Assembly (NCBI GenBank): GCA_003219695.1
Contig: QHQA01000111.1
Location: 1-37,942 of the forward strand
Reading direction: 5' to 3'
DNA length: 37,942 nucleotides
Source of the DNA: Verrucomicrobiota bacterium
Lineage (GTDB): Bacteria; Verrucomicrobiota; Verrucomicrobiia; Chthoniobacterales; UBA10450
In this document: in pieces, positions 3,018-35,669 of the stretch
Layout of the letters: every line of letters starts with the position of its first letter
Numbering within the stretch: the first letter of the stretch is position 1
Notes under the pieces: model-generated
What the model saw: only the letters and a program-made list of their open reading frames with translations
Told to the model about the DNA's origin: nothing
Databases searched by the model: none
Translations under genes and position numbers: made by a program

Positions 3018-3032
3018 GCTTTTTCAATCTCT

Positions 3033-3132
3033 GTCATTCCGACCGAAGTGGAGGAATCTCTAATCTATCCCAGAGATGTCTCCAGCCTTCGCATAAAGCT
3101 ACGGCTTGGCACGTGACTCCGCTCGACATGAC
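3033..3132. repeat. Palindromic repeat, GTCATTCCGA family
   Basis: The copy starts GTCATTCCGACCGAAGTGGAGGAATC-like and ends CTCCGCTCGACATGAC, the inverted end. It fills almost all of the space between the metallopeptidase and the ATP-grasp gene. The same family recurs at 16958-17121 and, in frame, inside uvrA at 22644-22744. Confidence 0.65.
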
Positions 3133-3144
3133 AGCGCGTGCAGG

Positions 3145-4152
3145 TCATTTGGTGCGCTTGAATTTCCCGGTGAAAAGATAATTCATCACCAGTGTGGTGA
3201 TGAAAGCGGAGACGCGAAAATCCTGTTGCGGATCGTCGTTGAGCACATGAAGCCCAAGCTCGTCGCAGCGGCGCGTGAGGCGCGAGAGCAGCTGGTTGAC
3301 GCTAAACTTTTTCTCGTTCGTCCATTGGCAAACCGCGTTCAGTAGGCGGCGTCTCCGCCTGCGCAGGTACGCGCTTGCTTTGATGCCAGCCGGCGCAGCG
3401 AAAAGCTGTCGCAGATCGGCATCGTAAAAATCCGGATAAGTGTCTTCGTTGAGCTTGCGCTTGCGCGCATAATAAGTTTTCAGCTTAACGTTCAGGCAAT
3501 CGTAATCGGCGGCGCGATATTCTGGCATATGCACCGGCGGCGTGCCCGCCAGCGATCGCATGAGCTCATCTAGGTATTCGAGTTTTCTCAGTGCCGGCCA
3601 GCCCGCGTAACGTTTGCGCCAATCTAGGCCCGGTGTGAGCCAGACGGCGAACGTCTCGGCAAAATCTTCGTCAGGATGGCTCTGCGCGTACCAGTCCTCG
3701 AGGTGAACAACATAACTGCGGCTGAATGGACGAGGCCGATAGGTGCTCGGCGTTTCCTCGTGCGATGTCGGCCCGAAACAACGCTGCCATTTTTTCTTTC
3801 GTTGCAGCTGATAAGCATAGCTGTAGGCGTGTCCCGCTTCGTGTCGCATCAGTTTCATGAACCATTCCGGCGTACCGCCTTCCACTTCGAGCATCATGGT
3901 GCGCTCCAGCGCGCGCAGCCGGTCATGCACGAGGAAGAACGGAATAAAAATCGCCGGAGTGCCGATCGGCACGAACCATTCATCGCCGATGTGGCATGGC
4001 GGATGAAACACGAGGCCTTTCGCCGAAAGCTCGTCATACAGTTGCTGAATGAGGGGTTCGATCGCTGTGCCCTCAAGCTTCAACCCAAGCGTCGAAATGC
4101 GGCGTTCCACGAGCTCCTCGTCGCTCAGTAACGCCCAATCGGGAGCTTCCAT
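3145..4152 (-). CDS. Putative zinc-binding metallopeptidase (Peptidase_Mx-like)
   Basis: The protein has about 335 aa from ATG 4152; a longer TTG start at 4179 would overlap the upstream HEPN gene. An HExxH zinc motif (MRHEAGHAYSYAYQL) is followed about 60 residues later by HPDEDFAETFAVWL. The Glu there is the expected third ligand, and this matches the putative zinc-binding metallopeptidase family. No signal peptide or membrane segment is visible, so it appears cytoplasmic. It sits between the DUF262-HEPN pair upstream and an ATP-grasp ligase downstream, all on the minus strand with close spacing, and co-transcription is plausible. The peptidase fold is supported by motifs; the substrate is unknown. 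Confidence 0.8.
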   Translation of the reverse strand: MEAPDWALLSDEELVERRISTLGLKLEGTAIEPLIQQLYDELSAKGLVFHPPCHIGDEWFVPIGTPAIFIPFFLVHDRLRALERTMMLEVEGGTPEWFMKLMRHEAGHAYSYAYQLQRKKKWQRCFGPTSHEETPSTYRPRPFSRSYVVHLEDWYAQSHPDEDFAETFAVWLTPGLDWRKRYAGWPALRKLEYLDELMRSLAGTPPVHMPEYRAADYDCLNVKLKTYYARKRKLNEDTYPDFYDADLRQLFAAPAGIKASAYLRRRRRRLLNAVCQWTNEKKFSVNQLLSRLTRRCDELGLHVLNDDPQQDFRVSAFITTLVMNYLFTGKFKRTK

Positions 4153-11876: not shown

Positions 11877-11936
11877 AGTAGCGCGAGCCTCTGGCTTGCA
11901 TCGTAGCCGGCTGCAAGCGAGGACGCATGCGCTACT
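11877..11936. repeat. GTAGCGC...GCGCTAC palindromic repeat between sufB and sufD
   Basis: AGTAGCGCGAGCCTC-type left arm and its inverted partner ending GCATGCGCTACT form an imperfect palindrome that begins at the base after the sufB stop. It is the same family as 25195-25222, 35610-35669 and the uvrA insert at 21700-21787. In the transcript it would fold as a long hairpin inside the operon. Confidence 0.65.
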
Positions 11937-14283: not shown

Positions 14284-14395
14284 AGTTAAGGGTTCGTAAA
14301 AATTCGCGTCTCATAACAAGGCTGATGGCACACAGCAGGCGGCCGACCGCAGCGGAAAAGCGGCGTCGAGCCGCCGCACTCCAAAGGTCGCCGCG

Positions 14396-14411
14396 GCGAC
14401 CGAAAACATTC
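14396..14411. repeat. Copy of GGTCGCCGCGGCGACC repeat
   Basis: This perfect 16-bp palindrome is identical to one inside uvrA at 20946-20961. It lies in the tonB-exbD gap, next to a run of TTCGTG-type direct repeats (about 14409-14440). Nothing else is seen in the 14284-14549 gap. Confidence 0.5.
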
Positions 14412-14549: not shown

Positions 14550-14966
14550 TCACTTTGATTCTGCTCTGGTGGCGATGCCGACCTTTGTGATTCCCGCTCG
14601 TTGCAGCGCGTCCATTACTCCAATCAATTTTTGCACGGGCAAATCGCGATCGGGCCGAATCACAATGGCGACGTCCGGATTTGTCCGTTTCAGCTCAGCC
14701 AACTGGGCGGTGACCGTTTCCAAATCCACCACTTGATTATTAAACCGGATCGTGTTGCTTCGGTCTATCGACACGGTTTGCACTTGCGATGTGTTGATCG
14801 GCGGATTTTTCGTGCCACTGGATGGGATCACCAGGTTCATGCTGCTTTCAAGCAACGGTGTGGTGATCATGAAGATGATGAGCAGCACAAACGCCAGATC
14901 GAGCAGCGGCGTGACATTGATCTCGCTCAGCGTGGAGAGACTTTGGCGTTGCGAGTAGCGTCTCAT
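14550..14966 (-). CDS. exbD: ExbD/TolR biopolymer transport protein
   Basis: The 138-aa protein is taken from ATG 14966 (MRRYSQRQSL), preceded by GGGAG. A longer frame from TTG 15038 would add residues that are only translated tandem repeat. The single membrane helix LLDLAFVLLIIFMITTPLLE follows INVTP and contains the membrane Asp that carries protons in ExbD/TolR. The periplasmic domain ends with DLPVQKLIGVMDALQRAGITKVGIAT, typical of the family. It sits between exbB and tonB. Confidence 0.93.
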   Translation of the reverse strand: MRRYSQRQSLSTLSEINVTPLLDLAFVLLIIFMITTPLLESSMNLVIPSSGTKNPPINTSQVQTVSIDRSNTIRFNNQVVDLETVTAQLAELKRTNPDVAIVIRPDRDLPVQKLIGVMDALQRAGITKVGIATRAESK

Positions 14967-14976
14967 CTGCTCCCAA

Positions 14977-15011
14977 TTGGATGTTGGACGTTGGACGTTG
15001 GACGTTGGACG
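14977..15011. repeat. Tandem TTGGAYG 7-mer array in the exbD leader
   Basis: There are five consecutive 7-mers: TTGGATG then four copies of TTGGACG. On the minus strand this gives CAACGTC repeats ending about 10 bases before the exbD ATG. The array lies in the exbB-exbD gap and may vary in copy number. A related TTGGATG motif makes the end of lgt (about 15990-16005). Confidence 0.6.
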
Positions 15012-15084
15012 TTGAAAAACACTTTCGGAAAACGCCAAACGCCCAACGCCGAACGCTCAATGTCGAATGAAAGATGGGCACTCA

Positions 15085-16940: not shown

Positions 16941-16957
16941 TTGCGGCGATTTTCGCT

Positions 16958-17121
16958 GTCATTCCGAGCGAAGTCGAGCTGCAACGCAGCCGCCGGAGGC
17001 GGCGAGGCCAGGCTTTCAAATCCCGTGGCAGAACTTACAGCTAATTTCACGGGATCCTTCGACTCCGCGGAGTTTACTCTGAGCGAGCGAAGCGAGTCGA
17101 ACGGGCTTCGCTCAGGATGAC
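16958..17121. repeat. Compound GTCATTCCGA/GTCATCCTGAGC palindromic repeat
   Basis: The stretch starts GTCATTCCGAGCGAAGTCGAG and ends CTCAGGATGAC, with GGATCCTTCGACTCC and GAGCGAAGCGAGTCGAAC inside. It overlaps the last codons of uvrA and supplies its TGA stop (17112-17114). The 170-base gap between lgt and uvrA is essentially all repeat. Confidence 0.65.
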
Positions 17122-20100
17122 GGCGTGGTTTTCGCGCGCGAGCTGTTCAAAACTTTTCGCAAAAATGGCGCGGTGCGGCTCACTCGATTCTTTACAATTT
17201 GTTCGGGTGTTCCGGTAGCGACTACTTTGCCGCCCGCGTCACCAGCTTCCGGGCCGAGATCGACAATGTAATCGGCTTCCGCAATCACACTGAGATTGTG
17301 TTCGATCACGATCACGGTGTTGCCTTCATCCACGAGCCGATGAAGCACATTGAGAAGCAGTTCAATGTCGGCCATATGCAGGCCGATGGTCGGTTCCTCC
17401 AGCAAATACAATGTCGAGCCGCGCGCGCGCATTTTTCGGATCCGCTCGTCGGCCGCGCGGCTCACCCCGCGTTTCAGTTGCGTCACCAGCTTGAGCCGCT
17501 GCGCTTCGCCGCCGCTCAAGGTGGGGCTCGGTTGTCCGAGCTTGAGATAGCCAAGTCCAGTATCGACCAACAGTGAAAGCGGGCGCGCAATTTTCGGATG
17601 CGCCGAAAAAAAATGCGCCGCTTCTTCGATAGTCATTTCCATCACGTCGCCGATGGATTTTTCGTTATAAAGGACTTCCAGTGTTTGCGTATTGTAACGA
17701 CGGCCGTGACAATCTTCACAAGGCACGTAACTGCGCGGTAAAAAATTCATCTCCAGTTTGATCACGCCCTGGCCTTTGCACGTTTCGCAGCGACCGCCTT
17801 CGGCGTTGAATGAGAATCGGCTGGCCGAATAACCGCGCACACGCGAGACGGGCAGTTGCGCGTAAAGAATTCGAACCTCGTCGAATACTTTCACATACGT
17901 GCCCGGCGTCGAGCGCGACGTTTTACCGATCGGCGATTGATCAACTTCATAAACGGCTTGGATCTGGGGTGCGCACGCGCCCCGCGTGCTGGCAATGGCG
18001 CCCTCGCCATTGCGAACTTTTTCTTCAAACAATCCCATTTGCCCGCTGGAAGATCGCGGCGAGGCGCCGCGATCGGCACGCGAGGCGCGTGCGCTCCCCA
18101 GACTCGCGCGAACCATCGGAAGAATTACATCGTGCATCAGCGTCGATTTTCCCGAACCGGAAATTCCAGTGATCACCGAAAGCCTGCCGATGGGGAAACG
18201 AACATTGATGTCTTTCAAATTGTTCGCGCGCGCGCGGTGGACTTCGATCCAGTTTTCCACATCGCGCAGCGATCGGCGCGAGCCCCGGACGGGGTAGCGC
18301 AGCGGCGTTTTCAAGCAGCGGGCTGTCTCGGACTTTGGATTCTTCTCGATGTCGCGTAACGTTCCGGTTGCGACGACTTCGCCGCCGTGAATTCCGGCGC
18401 GCGGCCCGAGATCAACAATGTGATCGGCCCGCCGCATGGTTTCTTCATCGTGCTCCACTACGATTAGCGAATTGCCTTTGTTCCGAAGCGCGGTGAGCGT
18501 TTCGAGCAAGCGCATGTTATCGCGCGCATGCAGACCGATCGTCGGTTCGTCCAGCACGTAAAGAACGCCGCGCAAATTTGAGCCAAGCTGCGCGGCCAGA
18601 CGAATTCGTTGGGACTCGCCGCCGCTCAACGTTTTCGCGGAGCGCCCCAGCGCGAGATAACCGAGTCCGACCGTTTCCATGAAACGCAGTCGCTGCTGAA
18701 TTTCCGGGATGAGACCGGCAGCGATTGTTTCGTGCGCGCCTTTGAATTTCAACCTTCCGATCGCCCGCGCTGCTTGGCTGGCTGAAAGATTCGTGAACTG
18801 GTCGATGGTGTAGCCGTGCACGCGCACGTGACGCGCCACCGCGTTCAGGCGCGAGCCGTGACAGCTCGGGCATTCGCGCGCTTCGCCTTCCTCGATCCAT
18901 TCCGATTCGCGCTCCGCCGCGAGTTCGTTTTCCAGGACCGATTCACCGTCGCGGTCTGCGCCCGTTTGCAAATCCGCGTCCCAAATTTCACCGAACCCGC
19001 CGCATTCTTCGCACATGCCATGCGGCGAATTGAATGAAAACAACCGCGGATCGAGTTCCTCAAACGCGCGGCCGCAATTTGGACAGCTCATCTCCGTGCT
19101 CACCACTGTTAAGCGATTTTTTGAATCGAGCAGACGCGCTGTGCCGCGGCCGATGTCCAGCGCGCGCCGAACAATGTCGCGCGCGTTCGCGATTCGCTTG
19201 CGATCGATCGCGCCGACAACCACGTCAATGGTGTGCTCTTTGAAACGCTCCAGTTTCCGAAAATGCGCGACGGGAACCAATCGGCCATCGATATACAGCG
19301 CGTCGAAGCCCTGGCGCGCAGCCCAGTGCACCACATCGGTATGAAAACCTTTGCGCGCTTTCACCAGCGGCGCGAGGAGCCTCAGCGGTCCGCGCTTCGC
19401 CGCAGCTTCGACTTGTTTCACGATTGCGGCCACGCTCTGTTTTTCCACGGGCAAATCGCAATCGGGACAAAATTGTGTTCCGATTTTCGCAAACAGGAGC
19501 CGAAGGAAATGATAGACCTCGGTGACCGTCGCAACAGTTGATTTGCCGCCGCCGCGCGTGACACGTTGTTCGATCGCTACACTCGGCGGCAAGCCGCTGA
19601 CGAGATCGACATCAGGCTTTTCGAGTTGCTCGACAAATTGCCGCGCATACGGCGACATACTATCGAGAAAACGGCGCTGTCCTTCGGCGAACAAGATGTC
19701 GAACGCGAGCGTTGATTTGCCAGAGCCGCTTAAACCAGTGATCACTACGAGCTGCTCCCGCGGGATTGCAACATCGATGTTTTTCAGGTTGTGCTCCCGC
19801 GCGCCATGAACGTGGATTGCGCCATTCTTCTGCGGATTGGGGACCGCACGCGCCTCGCGTGCTCCGTTCGCTGCCTCGGCGAACGGTTCTTCCGCAGCTC
19901 GAAGCGCAAGATTCTCTCCCTCGTCAGTGTAGCTGCCACGCTTTCGGAGGGTTTTCGGCGGGGCGCCGAAAACGGCACGCGAGGCGCGTGCGCTCCCCAG
20001 AATTTCGCGAAGAAATTTGCCGGTATGCGAATGCTCAATGCGCGCGATTTCTTCTGGTGTTCCAGTCGCCACTACTTCACCGCCCGCGTCGCCAGCTTCC

Positions 20101-23100
20101 GGACCCAGATCGATGATCCAATCTGCGCACTTGATCACTTCGAGGTTGTGCTCGATCACAACGATGGAATGTCCACGATCGACGAGCCGCTGAAATAACC
20201 GCAGCAGCATCGCCACGTCGTCGAAATGCAGTCCCGTGGTCGGCTCGTCGAAGATGAAGAGATTGCCTCGTGGTATCGGCATCTTGCCGACGGATTGGCT
20301 GGAAGCCAATGCCACAGCGGGCGTCGCGCTTCCTTCCGTCTCCGCCAAGTGTCCAACCAATTTCAGCCGCTGCGACTCACCGCCAGAAAGCGTGTTGAGA
20401 GGTTGACCTAACCGCAAATAACCCAGTCCGACTTCTTCGAGCACTTTGAGCTCGTTCGAAATCTGCATACCCGGATCGACCCTCACCTGGCGCTTCCCGT
20501 CCGCCTCATGGAATTCTTGTTTGCCGATCCGCGCAAAAAACTGAATCGCTTCGCTCACCGTCAAGTCGAGCATATCGTGAATCGATTTTCCGCTGAGTTG
20601 AACTTTTAGAACATGCGGCTGGAAACGTTTGCCTTCGCACTCGGCACAGCGCACAAAAAGATCGCTCAAAAATTGCATCTCGATCTTTTCGTAGCCGGTG
20701 CCTGAGCAACGCTCGCAGCGACCATTGCCGGAATTAAACGAAAATGCGGCGGCGGTGAGTCCTTGCGCCATCGCGTCCGGCTGCGCAGCGAACAGTTCGC
20801 GGACGCGATCAAACAAACCGAGATAAAGGATCGGCGTCGAACGCGGCGTGCGCGCCAAGGGCGACTGATCGACCATCACCACGTCGCCGATGCGATGCGC
20901 GCCAGCGACCGACTTGCATGTGCCCGGCTCCCCTGTCAAGCCGTAGGTCGCCGCGGCGACCGAAGGCTGATGATCAGAGGATTGGCCCTTTGCACGCAAG
21001 AGATTCCGGTAAAGCACATCGTGAATGAGAGTGGATTTGCCGGAACCGGATACGCCGGTCACGCACGCGAAAACGCCAAGTGGCAGCTCGACGTCAATGT
21101 TTTTCAGATTGTGCTGGCGCGCACCAATGATCTTGATCGATGAGGTCGATCTTCGCCGCCATTTCGGCACTGGGATTGATTTGCGATTCGTCAGATAATC
21201 GCGCGTTAAGGATTGGGGAGCGCCATCTCGTGCGAGAAAATCCTCCGGCGAACCATTCCAAACCAATTCGCCGCCGTGCTCGCCGCGGCCGGGCCCGAGA
21301 TCGATCAAATTATCGGCGGCGCGGATGATTTGTTCCTCGTGCTCGACGACCAGCAAGGTGTTGCCCTTCTCGCGTAGATTGTGCATCAGGCGCACGAGCT
21401 GGCCGACATCGCGCGGGTGCAATCCGATGCTTGGTTCGTCCATGACAAACAGCGTGTTCACCAGCGATGCGCCGAGACATGTCGTCAGGTTTACGCGCTG
21501 GACTTCGCCCCCGCTCAACGTGCGAGTGGACCGATCCAGCGTGAGATAACCCACGCCGACTTCGCAGAGATAGTTCAGGCGTGCGCAAATTTCGTCGCGC
21601 AGCATTGCTGCAGTTTTGTCGGCAGGTGAAATTCCGAGATTGCGGAGAACATCGCGCGCTTCGCAGATCGAAAGCGCCTGGAATTCCGGAAGCGTTAAGG
21701 TAGCGCATGCCTCCGGTCCGCCAGTCGGACGGACTCGTCCCGCGGCGAGCTTGCCCCTCAAACTCGCAACCGGAACGGTCGCGCTACATTTGTAGTTCAA
21801 GGCTTCGGGTTGATAGCGGCCGCCATTGCATTTGGGACAAGTAATGTAAGCGCGATAGCGGCTGAGCAGGACGCGCACATGCATTTTGTACGTCTTGCTC
21901 TCAAGCCAGCGGAAAAAGCCGCGCGCGCCGTACCAGCGATCGTGTTCGTAGTCTTCACTGTAGCTGGCATCGTTGATGCCGGGGTCACCGCCCCCGGCTA
22001 CAGTCTCTCCTTCGATGACGAAATCCTGATCAGCCCGTGGTAATTCCTCGAACGGAACATTGATGTCGATCTCTGCGCGCGCGCACGCGCGAAGCAAGTC
22101 CTTCTGCGATTCGCCGAACTCCGCGCCGCGAAAAACGCGCACCACGCCTTGTTTGATGCTCAAGCTGCGGTCGGGAATTGCCTTGTTTAAGTCGATCGCG
22201 ATCGTCCGGCCGAAGCCGCGGCATTCCGGGCATGCGCCGAGCGGATTGTTGAAACTGAAGAGTCCCGAAGTGGGTGGACGAATGTCCAAGTCGCACCAGG
22301 CGCAATGCCAGCCGGTGGAGAAGGGAAGAGAGTGATCGGTGATTGGTGATTGGTGATCAGTTGAAAACGGAATGACGTTTATCTTTCCTCTTCCAAACCG
22401 AAGCGCGGTTTCGATGGCTTCGATTAATCGGGCGCGATTTTCGGGCATTATTGCGATGCGATCCTGGATCACCTGCACGCGGGCGCCGAGCCGTTTGATT
22501 TTTGGATCGGCATCGTCCACGCGGACGATTTGGTTGTCGATCCAAACGCGCACGTAACCTTGCTGCTGGAGGAAATCGAAAAACTTCCGCGGCTCGGTTT
22601 TCGGCGGGACGGAGATCCAAAACGTGATGAGAACCGTTGTGCCGTCATTCCGACCGGATCCCGCAGTCGCTGGAGAAGTGGAGGAATCCCGCGGAGTTAC
22701 CAGCTGGTTTCGCGACGGGATTTCTCGACTTCGCTCGAAATGACAGATGACTTGCTCGGCGATTGACTGCGCCGTTTCGGGGCGAATCTGGCGGCCACAG
22801 CTTGGACAGAAGGCGCGCGAGACGCGCGGCCATAGCAGTTTCAAGTAATCGTTGATCTCCGTCATTGTCCCGACGGTCGAGCGCGATGTTTTCACCGGAT
22901 TCGCCTGCTCGATGGCAATCGCAGGCGGGATGCCGCGGATGTCGTCCACGCGAGGTTTGTCCATGCGATCGAGAAACTGCCGCATGTAAGGACTGAACGT
23001 CTCGACGTACCGTCGCTGGCCTTCGGCGTAAATCGTCTCAAAGGCAAGTGATGATTTGCCGCTGCCGCTCGGGCCGGTGACGACGGTCAATTTCCCCAGC

Positions 23101-23213
23101 GGAAGATCGACATCAATCCCCTTGAGATTGTTCTGGCGCGCTCCGCGAATTTCGACGCAAGCATTCCGCGCCGGTGCAATCACACGCTCTTTTTTCCCGA
23201 TCTTCGAACCCAC
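17112..23213 (-). CDS. uvrA: Double-length UvrA, with repeat-derived insertions
   Basis: UvrA is the damage-sensing ABC ATPase of nucleotide excision repair. This 2033-aa protein is two UvrA copies in tandem. Four Walker A motifs are seen ([36 protein letters not shown]) with four LSGGE signatures, and two sets of zinc-finger Cys pairs (CPKC, CERC/CAEC, then CPNC/CEEC, CPSC, CETC/CEDC). A normal UvrA has about 940 residues; Chlamydiae carry a similar double form, which supports PVC ancestry. The extra length over two normal copies is largely short in-frame inserts made of palindromic repeats, listed separately. The start is GTG. The TGA stop lies inside another repeat copy. Confidence 0.95.
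17966..18099. repeat. In-frame insert in uvrA, GGGGAGCGCACGCG family
   Basis: GGGGTGCGCACGCGCC at one end and its near-perfect inverted partner GGCGCGTGCGCTCCCC at the other bound a 134-bp unit (uvrA residues about 1706-1750, reading [19 protein letters not shown] and on). UvrA homology resumes on each side: LMHDVILPM before and [15 protein letters not shown] after. Related to 19839-19998. Confidence 0.7.
19839..19998. repeat. In-frame insert in uvrA between the two UvrA halves
   Basis: The 24-bp terminal arms GGGGACCGCACGCG... and ...CGCGTGCGCTCCCC are inverted copies with one mismatch. The unit encodes uvrA residues about 1073-1125 ([19 protein letters not shown] and on) and forms the linker between the first and second UvrA copy. 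The peptide GSARASRA is shared with the 17966-18099 insert. Confidence 0.72.
20265..20335. repeat. Probable in-frame insert in uvrA near a Walker B region
   Basis: uvrA residues about 960-984 ([19 protein letters not shown] and on) interrupt the step between KLVGHLAE and [13 protein letters not shown], which are normally close together. The DNA holds TTGGCTGGAAGCCAA, an inverted repeat. Boundaries are approximate. Confidence 0.5.
20929..20975. repeat. In-frame insert in uvrA with GGTCGCCGCGGCGACC
   Basis: The 16-bp palindrome at 20946-20961 is identical to the intergenic copy at 14396-14411. It translates as part of [16 protein letters not shown] (uvrA residues about 747-762), just before [22 protein letters not shown], where UvrA conservation resumes. 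Confidence 0.6.
21700..21787. repeat. In-frame insert in uvrA, GTAGCGC...GCGCTAC family
   Basis: GTAGCGC at one end and GCGCTAC at the other bound 88 bp that encode uvrA residues about 476-505 ([19 protein letters not shown] and on). Conserved UvrA sequence ([14 protein letters not shown] before, [14 protein letters not shown] after) flanks it. The same family is intergenic at 11877, 25195 and 35610. Confidence 0.72.
21958..22003. repeat. In-frame insert in uvrA, CTGTAGC...GGCTACAG family
   Basis: CTGTAGC and GCTACAG bound a 46-bp unit with an inner GGCATCGTTGATGCC palindrome, encoding uvrA residues about 404-419 ([16 protein letters not shown]). Related to the intergenic GCCGGGATCACCGATCCCGGCTACAG copy at 33062-33086. 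Confidence 0.62.
22331..22361. repeat. In-frame GTGATTGG tandem array in uvrA
   Basis: AGTGATCGGTGATTGG followed by GTGATTGGTGATCAGT is an 8-9-mer tandem run that translates as [13 protein letters not shown] (uvrA residues about 285-295). A related GTGATCGGTTATCAGTG pair flanks tRNA-Val upstream (27334-27413). Confidence 0.6.
22644..22744. repeat. In-frame insert in uvrA, GTCATTCCGA family
   Basis: GTCATTCCGAC at one end and TCGCTCGAAATGAC at the other bound 101 bp that encode uvrA residues about 157-190 ([16 protein letters not shown] and on). It is the same family as 3033-3132 and 16958-17121. Normal UvrA sequence resumes with [14 protein letters not shown]. Confidence 0.75.
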
Positions 23214-27313: not shown

Positions 27314-27333
27314 ACTTCAATTAGAAGTGATAA

Positions 27334-27413
27334 GTGATCGGTTATCAGTGATCAGTCAAGACCGCGGAAGAGACCGATCGCCATTCCAATCACGTTCACT
27401 GATCACAGATCAC
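27334..27413. repeat. Inverted GTGATCGGTTATCAGTG pair upstream of tRNA-Val
   Basis: GTGATCGGTTATCAGTG (27334-27350) and CACTGATCACAGATCAC (27397-27413) are inverted copies with two mismatches. They occupy the region where a tRNA-Val promoter would lie. The sequence is related to the tandem array inside uvrA at 22331-22361. Confidence 0.55.
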
Positions 27414-33009: not shown

Positions 33010-33061
33010 TTGGAACGCGCCAGCACACGTAAGCCAACTGCTTTGCGCTGTCCAGCTCAAT

Positions 33062-33086
33062 GCCGGGATCACCGATCCCGGCTACA
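33062..33086. repeat. GCCGGGATC/GATCCCGGC palindrome with CTACAG
   Basis: Perfect 9-bp arms with a 3-nt loop (33062-33082) are followed by TACAG. The unit provides the TAG stop (33082-33084) of the 72-aa ORF. Related to the uvrA insert at 21958-22003. Confidence 0.6.
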
Positions 33087-33300
33087 GCGCCCGCTCGCTC
33101 GCGTCGTTGTAGAATTCAACCTGCCGTCCCCCGAGACGATGTATCACGCGCCAGCCGTGGTTTCTCGCGAAGTCTCGAATTTCCGCGTCGGACATGTTAC
33201 GCAGAACTCGCAGCTCGGCCGGCTGGGTGACGAGATACTCGGAGCCTTTTGAAAGCACCTCCGCAATCTTCGTCGTGAGAGCTGGCAAATCCTTGTGCAT
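33082..33300 (-). CDS. 72-aa conserved-looking small protein
   Basis: The frame runs from ATG 33300 to a TAG inside a repeat. The protein is helical and charged: MHKDLPALTTKIAEVLSKG, then VLRNMSDAEIRDFARNHGWRVIHRLGGRQVEFY. No family is recognised. The middle contains DAEIRDFARNHGWRV, which resembles a short DNA- or nucleotide-binding helix pair, but this is weak. The last residues (NDASERAL) lead into the repeat. It precedes the TMEM14 gene on the same strand. Confidence 0.5.
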   Translation of the reverse strand: MHKDLPALTTKIAEVLSKGSEYLVTQPAELRVLRNMSDAEIRDFARNHGWRVIHRLGGRQVEFYNDASERAL

Positions 33301-34808: not shown

Positions 34809-35618
34809 ATGCGCGAGCTGCTTCTTTGTCCGCCCGATTACTACGGGATCGAATACGAAATCAATCCCTGGATGAGTCGTGCCCGCGGCGCCGAGGCAGC
34901 GCTAGCGCAAAAGCAATGGGAAGGATTGCACGCGACCCTCTCAAAATTGGATCGCAAAGTGCATCTGATTGCGCCGCAGCCGGGACTTCCCGATATGGTT
35001 TTCACCGCCAACGCCGGCCTAACCGTTGGTCGCAGATTTATTCCCAGCAATTTCCGCCACAAAGAGCGCGCCGGCGAGCAGCCGTTCTTCGCGGAATGGA
35101 TGAAGCAACGCGGTTACGAAGTGCGTTGGCTGCCGGAAAATCGTTACTTCGAAGGCGAAGGCGATGCGCTCTTTGGCGGCGACGTGCTCTTTTGCGGCTA
35201 CAAATTTCGGTCCGATATTCAATCGCATCGCGCCGTCGCCGACATGCTGGGCTGCCTGGTGATCTCGGTGGAACTGGTTGATCCGCGCTTTTATCACCTC
35301 GACACGTGTTTTTGCCCGTTGCCCGACGGCGGGGCGTTCTGGTTTCCAATGGCGTTCGATGAATACGGCCAGCGCGCAATTCGCGAGCATGTGATCGATC
35401 TAATTGATGTTTCGCAGGAAGAGGCGACGCATTTTTCATGTAATGCGGTTGTTCTGGAGCGCGACATTGTTTTGCCCGAAGGCGCCCCCCAGCTCGTGAC
35501 CAGGCTGCACGAGCGCGGCTACCGCTGCCACGAATTGCCGATGAGCGAATTCATCAAGGCGGGCGGGGCCTGCAAATGCCTCGTCATGTTCATGCCACAA
35601 CGAGAAAGTGTAGCGTAA
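34809..35618 (+). CDS. Arginine dihydrolase-type guanidine-modifying enzyme (ArgZ N-domain-like)
   Basis: The 269-aa protein belongs to the GME fold. It carries PDMVFTANAG (61-70) with Asn68, FEGEGDAL (114-121), FYHLDTCFCPL (161-171) with His163, and GGACKCLVM (252-260) with C257 as the probable nucleophile. These match the N-terminal dihydrolase domain of cyanobacterial ArgZ/AgrE, which splits arginine to ornithine, CO2 and ammonia; the Asn there distinguishes it from deiminases. Peptidyl-arginine deiminase or dimethylarginine hydrolase are less likely. It follows the ornithine cyclodeaminase gene after 12 bases. The TAA stop (35616-35618) lies in a palindromic repeat, so the last residues (RESVA) may be repeat-derived. 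Confidence 0.85.
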   Translation: MRELLLCPPDYYGIEYEINPWMSRARGAEAALAQKQWEGLHATLSKLDRKVHLIAPQPGLPDMVFTANAGLTVGRRFIPSNFRHKERAGEQPFFAEWMKQRGYEVRWLPENRYFEGEGDALFGGDVLFCGYKFRSDIQSHRAVADMLGCLVISVELVDPRFYHLDTCFCPLPDGGAFWFPMAFDEYGQRAIREHVIDLIDVSQEEATHFSCNAVVLERDIVLPEGAPQLVTRLHERGYRCHELPMSEFIKAGGACKCLVMFMPQRESVA

Positions 35619-35669
35619 GCCTCTGGCTTGCGCGGGTATCTACACTGGGACGCGAGACGCTTACGCTAC
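35610..35669. repeat. GTAGCGTAAGC/GCTTACGCTAC repeat that ends two convergent genes
   Basis: The 11-bp perfect inverted ends are GTAGCGTAAGC and GCTTACGCTAC. Read in frame from each side, each arm gives GTA GCG TAA, so it supplies Val-Ala-stop to both the dihydrolase gene (plus) and polX (minus). Same family as 11877 and 21700. Confidence 0.75.

Follow-up and report, generated by a model that had tools for sequence, protein, structure and literature searches.

Most of the inserts that interrupt the uvrA reading frame in the window, the whole 37,942-nucleotide stretch of Verrucomicrobiota DNA analysed here, are very probably non-autonomous copies of short mobile palindromes that landed as DNA and have survived in frame largely as passengers. 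The gene encodes a tandem (fused) UvrA, the first half of which matched solved UvrAs in sequence, and the inserts occupy nine sites, designated A to I (Table 1). They are classed as single repetitive extragenic palindromic (REP) sequences (C and E), inverted pairs (D, H, and I), other short repeats (A and G), and a plain tandem (B). The source of the window is a 3.14-Mb genome in 224 contigs with a completeness of approximately 93%. The closest named matches of the window UvrA were Verrucomicrobia bins, and 1 of 80 loci was labelled Candidatus Udaeobacter; from this label and the record names, the habitat is probably soil.

Insert sites and their dispersed copies

The sites were defined from an alignment of 63 UvrA rows (7 duplicates removed) taken from the window and from loci of related genomes, in which 23 more distant UvrA rows served to define the core columns. 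The window protein contained 186 non-core residues, 178 of which lie within the nine sites, and all inserts were in frame and stop-free. An earlier note on this DNA, made from the sequence alone, had described at least eight in-frame inserts, at eight named sites. All eight were present in the alignment, and a ninth, site F at about residues 900-914, was added. The inserts sit between intact UvrA blocks, as that note had described, and residues at the same sites in distant UvrAs, which it had named as evidence against insertion, were looked for by alignment and are absent from the distant UvrAs.

Table 1. Positions of the UvrA inserts, of related elements in the window, and of the transposase-carrying genes of the same genome (aa, amino acid residues; positions are those of the window unless a contig is named)
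Feature	Position	Strand	Description
Tandem (fused) UvrA, 2033 aa	17112-23213	-	GTG start; no internal stop across 2033 codons
Site A	22643-22745	-	aa 157-191; TGTCATTT...GGAATGACG inverted repeat; fold z -2.7
Site B	22330-22358	-	aa 286-295; short tandem repeat; no hairpin
Site C	21976-22001	-	aa 405-413; single GTAG-tagged REP; fold z -3.4
Site D	21700-21787	-	aa 476-505; begins GTAGCGC, ends GCGCTAC; fold z -2.8
Site E	20943-20966	+	aa 750-757; GTAG REP antisense to uvrA; excess residues 749-761
Site F	20463-20513	-	about aa 900-917; columns occupied in 2/56 other UvrA rows
Site G	20265-20329	-	aa 962-983; two small hairpins; fold z -2.1
Site H	19839-19998	-	aa 1072-1125; two inverted REP arms flank native LALRAAEEP segment
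Site I	17966-18099	-	aa 1705-1750; two inverted REP arms flank short segment
Site A copy, intergenic	3028-3058	+	86% identity over 3030-3058
Site A copy, intergenic	16953-16978		sequence match
Site D-like GTAG...CTAC element, intergenic	11878-11935	+	layout judged by eye
Site E core copy, intergenic	14385-14404	.	20/20 bases
Tandem of site B kind	27325-27356		by eye
Site C REP copy	33060-33087	.	89%; at edges of two called genes
RAYT-nested MetH	C84 (L158:8846-13486)		own genome
RAYT-nested RecG	C8 (L148:1024-3738)		own genome

Each insert had been described as a palindrome or tandem repeat. This held for B, which is a tandem, and for most of the others, which fold: when folded as single strands, 9 of 11 tested stretches lay 1.5 to 3.7 standard deviations below their own shuffles. 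The exceptions were B and F, and F, which folded no better than its shuffles, does not fit the description. Folding was weak at E (z -1.8, with 11 of 200 shuffles equally good) and in I3, one arm of site I (18 of 200). The idea of simple short repeats had to be corrected at H and I, each of which carries an inverted pair of one REP family, with arms that are 80% complementary and separated by 70 and 60 bases, respectively. Matching inverted termini were also found at D, and the position of H corresponds to the linker joining the two UvrA halves. The GTAG tag was observed at C, D, and E and was replaced by GGAG at H and I, while no tag was seen at A, B, F, or G.

Related copies of most inserts had been described in intergenic DNA of the window, and an absence of further copies from the genome had been named as evidence against insertion of mobile repeats. 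Further copies exist for most of the repeats: A, C, D, G, H, and I have copies spread through the genome, E has one short copy, and B and F had none by BLAST. A blastn comparison of the whole uvrA gene with its own genome listed at least 58 places, comprising the gene itself, 4 on contig 34 (a UvrA-like region), and 53 others, each of which lies within or overlaps one of the insert stretches A, C, D, G, H, or I. The total is a lower bound, since of 247 candidates from the first look 40 were scored, and some alignments represent one spot counted on both strands. The contig 34 region holds a second, single UvrA-like gene of 983 residues (L152:1596-4547) with 0 repeat regions inside. Three copies of G were among the blastn matches listed.

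Copies were also counted in a 562-kb sample of the genome made up of 20 contigs sampled at even steps, a further 20 stretches picked mostly for holding hits, and the window. Hits outside UvrA (E <= 0.01) numbered 29 for A, 22 for C, 7 for D, 1 for E, 2 for G, 11 for H5, 8 for H3, 12 for I5, and 10 for I3, while B, F, and the middle of H gave 0 BLAST copies outside UvrA in this sample. One dispersed copy of C was identical at 27 of 27 bases. The five copies named by the earlier note within the window (3033, 11877, 14396, 27334, and 33062) all exist, two of them (11878-11935 and 27325-27356) as judged by eye. Site-occupancies of 8 or more excess residues numbered 149 among 40 family rows, and a dispersed copy was found for 97 of them, compared to 7 of 149 control segments of the same length taken from elsewhere in the same genes, all copies being sought in the sample of this one genome.

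The sample contained 157 repeat regions, of which 40 were within genes, 30 at gene edges, and 87 intergenic. As 84% of the sample is coding (484 genes in 562 kb, according to a simple purpose-made gene caller), the repeats are rarer in genes than expected. The 20 even-step contigs on their own gave 7 within genes, 4 at edges, and 20 intergenic. Other proteins of this genome that carry repeats include ThiC, MetH, RecG, TreS, PheT, and HutH.

Occupancy of the sites in relatives

Relatives carry inserts at the same UvrA sites, frequently of a different repeat type. Judged by peptide pattern in 38 rows, site H holds the REP pair seen in the window in 11, another repeat type in 20, and neither in 7, while site I is unfilled in L010 and others. 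That different repeat types fill these sites in relatives was taken to reflect repeated colonisation of a small number of positions within UvrA. On the UvrA tree, after exclusion of rows without data and with outgroup rows at I also counted by length, the changes between filled and unfilled states numbered 6 at A (9 of 27 rows filled), 5 at E (6 of 37), 4 at I (11 of 36), and 3 each at C (3 of 32) and F (3 of 38), and the REP-pair type at H required 7 changes (11 of 38 rows). No clear clustering of filled rows was observed at A, E, C, or F, where counts as low were obtained in 54, 113, 500, and 500 of 500 shuffles, respectively.

Compared to its counterpart in G031 (L012), the window uvrA is a mosaic, with 0.29 differences per silent site overall and no silent differences across codons 1-140 (50-codon windows), and insert A is located in a low-divergence tract. 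These two features favor a spread of the inserts chiefly by exchange of uvrA alleles between species through homologous recombination rather than by repeated transposition. However, the flanks of D, E, and I stand at 0.18-0.48 differences per silent site, and the different repeat types per site, together with the dispersed copies, need transposition at some stage. Recombination as the chief route is considered unlikely. Silent divergence from G031 was below that of their own flanks for inserts D, E, and I and not for H; constraint at the DNA level, considered on the basis of the low silent divergence of the inserts, was rejected because of the tract in which insert A sits. The dN/dS ratio of the inserts was 0.37 against G031 and 0.75 against L039, compared to 0.13 and 0.09, respectively, for the UvrA core.

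RAYT transposases nested in host enzymes

A REP-associated tyrosine transposase (RAYT; NF047646) was detected by profile scan in frame inside two proteins of the same genome, at residues 411-550 of MetH and 406-546 of RecG. The scores were 79.1 and 69.9 bits, respectively, against a curated cut-off of 80, and MetH was above the cut-off in a further profile search. The RAYT of MetH is located between the homocysteine methyltransferase and pterin-binding domains, and all MetH matches in the genome fall on this single gene. For RecG, the carrier was the only full match among the matches listed (3 of 7), and the other one listed, on contig 78, was a weaker match to a helicase. The inverted ends of sites H and I resemble those bordering RAYT genes in this genome: the ends of the MetH-nested RAYT were 86-87% identical to the arms of H and 82-91% identical to those of I. 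The RAYTs of RecG, MetH, and contig C113 have inverted ends that recur in the 562-kb sample; the RAYT of CarB had no inverted ends recurring in that sample. The RecG element of L214 carries GTAG and not GGAG. As a separate observation, the RAYT-nested CarB gene of this genome (L217, contig C82) has an in-frame stop at 3934-3936, followed by a CarB-like frame of 417 residues, with no readthrough.

Matches to NF047646 were obtained in 68 of 78 near genomes, the genome of the window included. From these, 40 stretches were examined, chosen mostly for a transposase within a long open frame, and the hosts were RecG at 18 loci and MetH at 4 (own genome included in both), AlaS at 4, TsaC at 2, and CarB at 1. 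Five others (L218 and L221-L224) were cytochrome c-like fusions (a weak family match) with the RAYT at the N side. Both HUH histidines were conserved in 68 of 68 aligned RAYT domains, the motif being present in all five fusions, and the conserved tyrosine, which we take to be the catalytic one, was found in 67 of 68, the exception being fusion L223.

Among 387 genomes of the phylum, 153 matched the RecG-nested domain. Frames of 500 residues or more contained 54 of the 150 places listed, and 18 of the best 25. Of 28 phylum-wide loci (L269-L296), 12 were in frames below 500 residues, and hosts were read only for the longer frames. Five AlaS and one RecG were assigned by eye from the flanking peptides, and 10 hosts were scanned with profiles: IspG (2), MetH, PriA, NspC, a DrmD-like helicase with NOV_C, an Eco57I-type methylase, a PglX-like methylase, an adenosine deaminase, and the unnamed L296, several of these names scoring below curated cut-offs. 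Host homology lies on either side of the RAYT in RecG, MetH, AlaS, CarB, TsaC, the DrmD-like helicase, and the Eco57I-type methylase; in IspG, NspC, and PriA a second host stretch was counted though not displayed, and in PglX and the adenosine deaminase the homology is on one side only. Two observations on the hosts are added here. AlaS matches are split at about profile position 373-378 in many genomes, marking a further in-frame insertion site that is filled by a RAYT in at least some. The RAYT domains of L282, L288, and L275 lie within genes for methylases and helicases that are similar to defence proteins of the BREX and DISARM systems.

Inverted ends were found for 31 of 45 nested copies (RecG, 18 of 19; MetH, 4 of 5; AlaS, 7 of 9; the rest, 2 of 12), compared to 7 of 45 mismatched pairs. 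No inverted ends were present within 260 bases of the RAYTs in CarB, TsaC, IspG, PriA, NspC, PglX, adenosine deaminase, L296, and the MetH of L281, and these were therefore classed as nested and not REP-bounded.

The RAYTs of RecG (17), MetH (4), and AlaS (4) form one clade with the short-open-reading-frame copy L219 (support 100/94), next to which those of TsaC and CarB are placed (95/83). In five RecG pairs, the nested domain had a dN/dS ratio of 0.08-0.12 and the surrounding RecG one of 0.05-0.12, which suggests that selection acts on the domain as strongly as on its host. No methionine was found between the host anchor and the HUH motif in 13 of 17 RecG inserts (two of them near-identical), other than one adjoining the motif; this counts ATG starts, beside which GTG or TTG starts may exist, and leaves out L208, which is without an anchor. 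In 48 RecGs compared (18 filled and 30 from the best uninterrupted matches, a non-random sample), the insert of the filled genes always lay between LPLF and GTHALL, and that of L208 occupied the equivalent position. Among the 30 uninterrupted genes, two (L253 and L263) retain REP-like ends, as judged by eye, and filled and empty genes differed in length by 639, 615, and 627 bases in three comparisons. On the RecG tree, whose long branches may have misplaced some rows, the filled and empty states need 13 changes, at least 9 of them on well-supported branches; this does not improve on shuffled labelings, 103 of 500 of which gave a count as low. Between the window genome and G031, RecG is 91.9% identical and the nested transposase domain 56.5%. 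This disparity, together with the changes between filled and empty states, points to replacement or re-invasion by RAYTs at one RecG site, as judged from sequence comparison.

Two other readings were considered with these data. If the inserts were absent from mature UvrA, having been removed as RNA or protein or skipped by the ribosome, they would not need to be in frame and stop-free, as all of them are. In a profile scan at the cut-offs used, no intein family was listed for 15 different RAYT-nested proteins, a set to which UvrA does not belong. Hairpins could in principle favor bypass, but this reading is regarded as very improbable. An artefact of assembly or binning might be suspected given that most of the genomes are fragmented bins, that G022 has two RecGs, and that the window genome has two AlaS matches on different contigs. 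However, inserts at the same sites recur across many separate assemblies, and nested RAYTs occur in genomes of few contigs, namely in RecG in genomes of about 10, 20, and 30 contigs (G044, G050, and G039) and in IspG in a one-contig genome (G388, L278). An artefact is considered scarcely credible.

From these data, we lean slightly toward the view that a Verrucomicrobiota lineage of RAYTs has become an obligate in-frame domain of housekeeping enzymes (RecG, MetH, AlaS, CarB, TsaC, IspG, and others), made only with its host, jumping between hosts and re-invading one exact site, with transposase-less derivatives forming inserts like those of UvrA. An element nested in a protein that the cell cannot do without would be sheltered, since any frameshift within it also kills the host protein. 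The UvrA inserts may have been moved by nested RAYTs. If the nested transposases are active, they would represent a mobile element that uses the essential proteins of its host as its gene. This would have consequences for annotation, one survey having set aside long proteins of this sort, and for the understanding of how proteins acquire new domains.

Proposed route, objections, and precedents

The inserts would arrive as DNA, probably moved by a RAYT transposase of the HUH type that acts on single-stranded hairpins. Of the landings in genes, most would be purged, and those that keep the frame in presumed loops or linkers would survive, translated as flexible peptides and persisting in UvrA largely as passengers; recombination between species may also shuffle them.

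Several observations weigh against this interpretation. Sites B and F are not accounted for by REPs. Filled rows at site I cluster on the UvrA tree (0 of 500 shuffles as low), and inheritance thus explains much at that site. The ends of RAYTs match UvrA inserts in 6 of 12 comparisons within a genome and in 74 of 132 between genomes; as same-genome matches are no better than cross-genome matches, no pairing specific to a genome is apparent, and the role of a cognate transposase is putative. Finally, 7 of the 40 intragenic repeat regions fall in UvrA, compared to 0.52 expected from its length (nominal P of 1e-6), an excess that neutral landing alone does not predict. This excess is treated as a lead and not a result because the gene was chosen for its repeats and paired arms count double, and targeting of uvrA by repeats is not claimed.

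The same post hoc excess, the RAYT carried by RecG, and the many REPs noted in repair genes in the accessible text of Di Nocera et al. (2013; PMC3733652) would favor functional inserts, selected in repair genes for tuning UvrA or for making mutator strains as those authors suggest. Against this, the peptides at one site vary between species, the dN/dS of the inserts is relaxed, and non-repair genes (ThiC, MetH, TreS, PheT, and HutH) also carry repeats. A function of this kind is considered improbable, and survival of most inserts as passengers remains the preferred reading.

Inserts of this kind have a precedent. According to the accessible text of PMC3733652, GTAG and CGTC REPs occur inside genes, many of them in replication and repair. 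Among these are the two uvrA genes of Opitutus terrae (Verrucomicrobia), a uvrA of Thioalkalivibrio, and the uvrB of R. conorii, and it is argued there that their presence in repair genes is hard to call fortuitous. Since the Opitutus terrae case was published, the kind of insert is already known; it is extended here by a single uvrA that bears inserts of several types and in which sites are used repeatedly. The GTAG REPs and RAYTs of that account share with the present elements the GTAG-tagged short palindromes, head-to-head dimers, many copies, some of them intragenic, and RAYT transposases. They differ in that here nine inserts of several types, not all GTAG, occupy one uvrA, relatives fill the same sites with other types, and the RAYT itself lies in frame inside MetH, RecG, and others, which was not seen in the accessible part of that paper. 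The present case bears on the published puzzle of REPs in repair genes, as it provides a genus in which the gain and loss of UvrA and RecG sites can be tracked between close species.

The earlier note had proposed a system analogous to the Rickettsia palindromic elements, which are likewise palindromic inserts in frame within proteins (PMC3733652). The analogy, drawn by description only, stands insofar as the inserts are in frame, lineage-specific, and mostly repeat-derived, but it proved too narrow, as the elements here are REP/RAYT-like with other short repeats, belong to another lineage, and include RAYTs with matching ends.

Pseudomonas REPINs are known as extragenic elements and their RAYTs as stand-alone genes. 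They resemble the present system in having inverted REP doublets with a RAYT as autonomous partner, whereas here doublets also lie within uvrA and RAYTs are found nested in host genes. Inteins and homing elements likewise are mobile elements in frame in a conserved protein that re-invade one site; in contrast, the RAYT-nested proteins gave no intein family, the insert stays in the open reading frame, and the ends, where found, are inverted REPs.

The TnpA_Y1 classification (PMC6006769) describes, in its accessible text, an HUH-Tyr core family that includes RAYTs, and a few unexpectedly long proteins were discarded there as gene fusions or annotation errors; nested cases would consequently drop out of that survey. 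No published account of a RAYT nested in frame in host enzymes was found among the papers listed in a search to which most subscription papers and bioRxiv preprints were external, and the novelty of the nesting is therefore provisional.

Two further repeats were noted in the window. A TTGGACG tandem of 5.4 copies occupies 14977-15014 within the called gene 14550-15038, and an inverted GTAG...CTAC pair at 35610-35669 spans the facing ends of two convergent genes.

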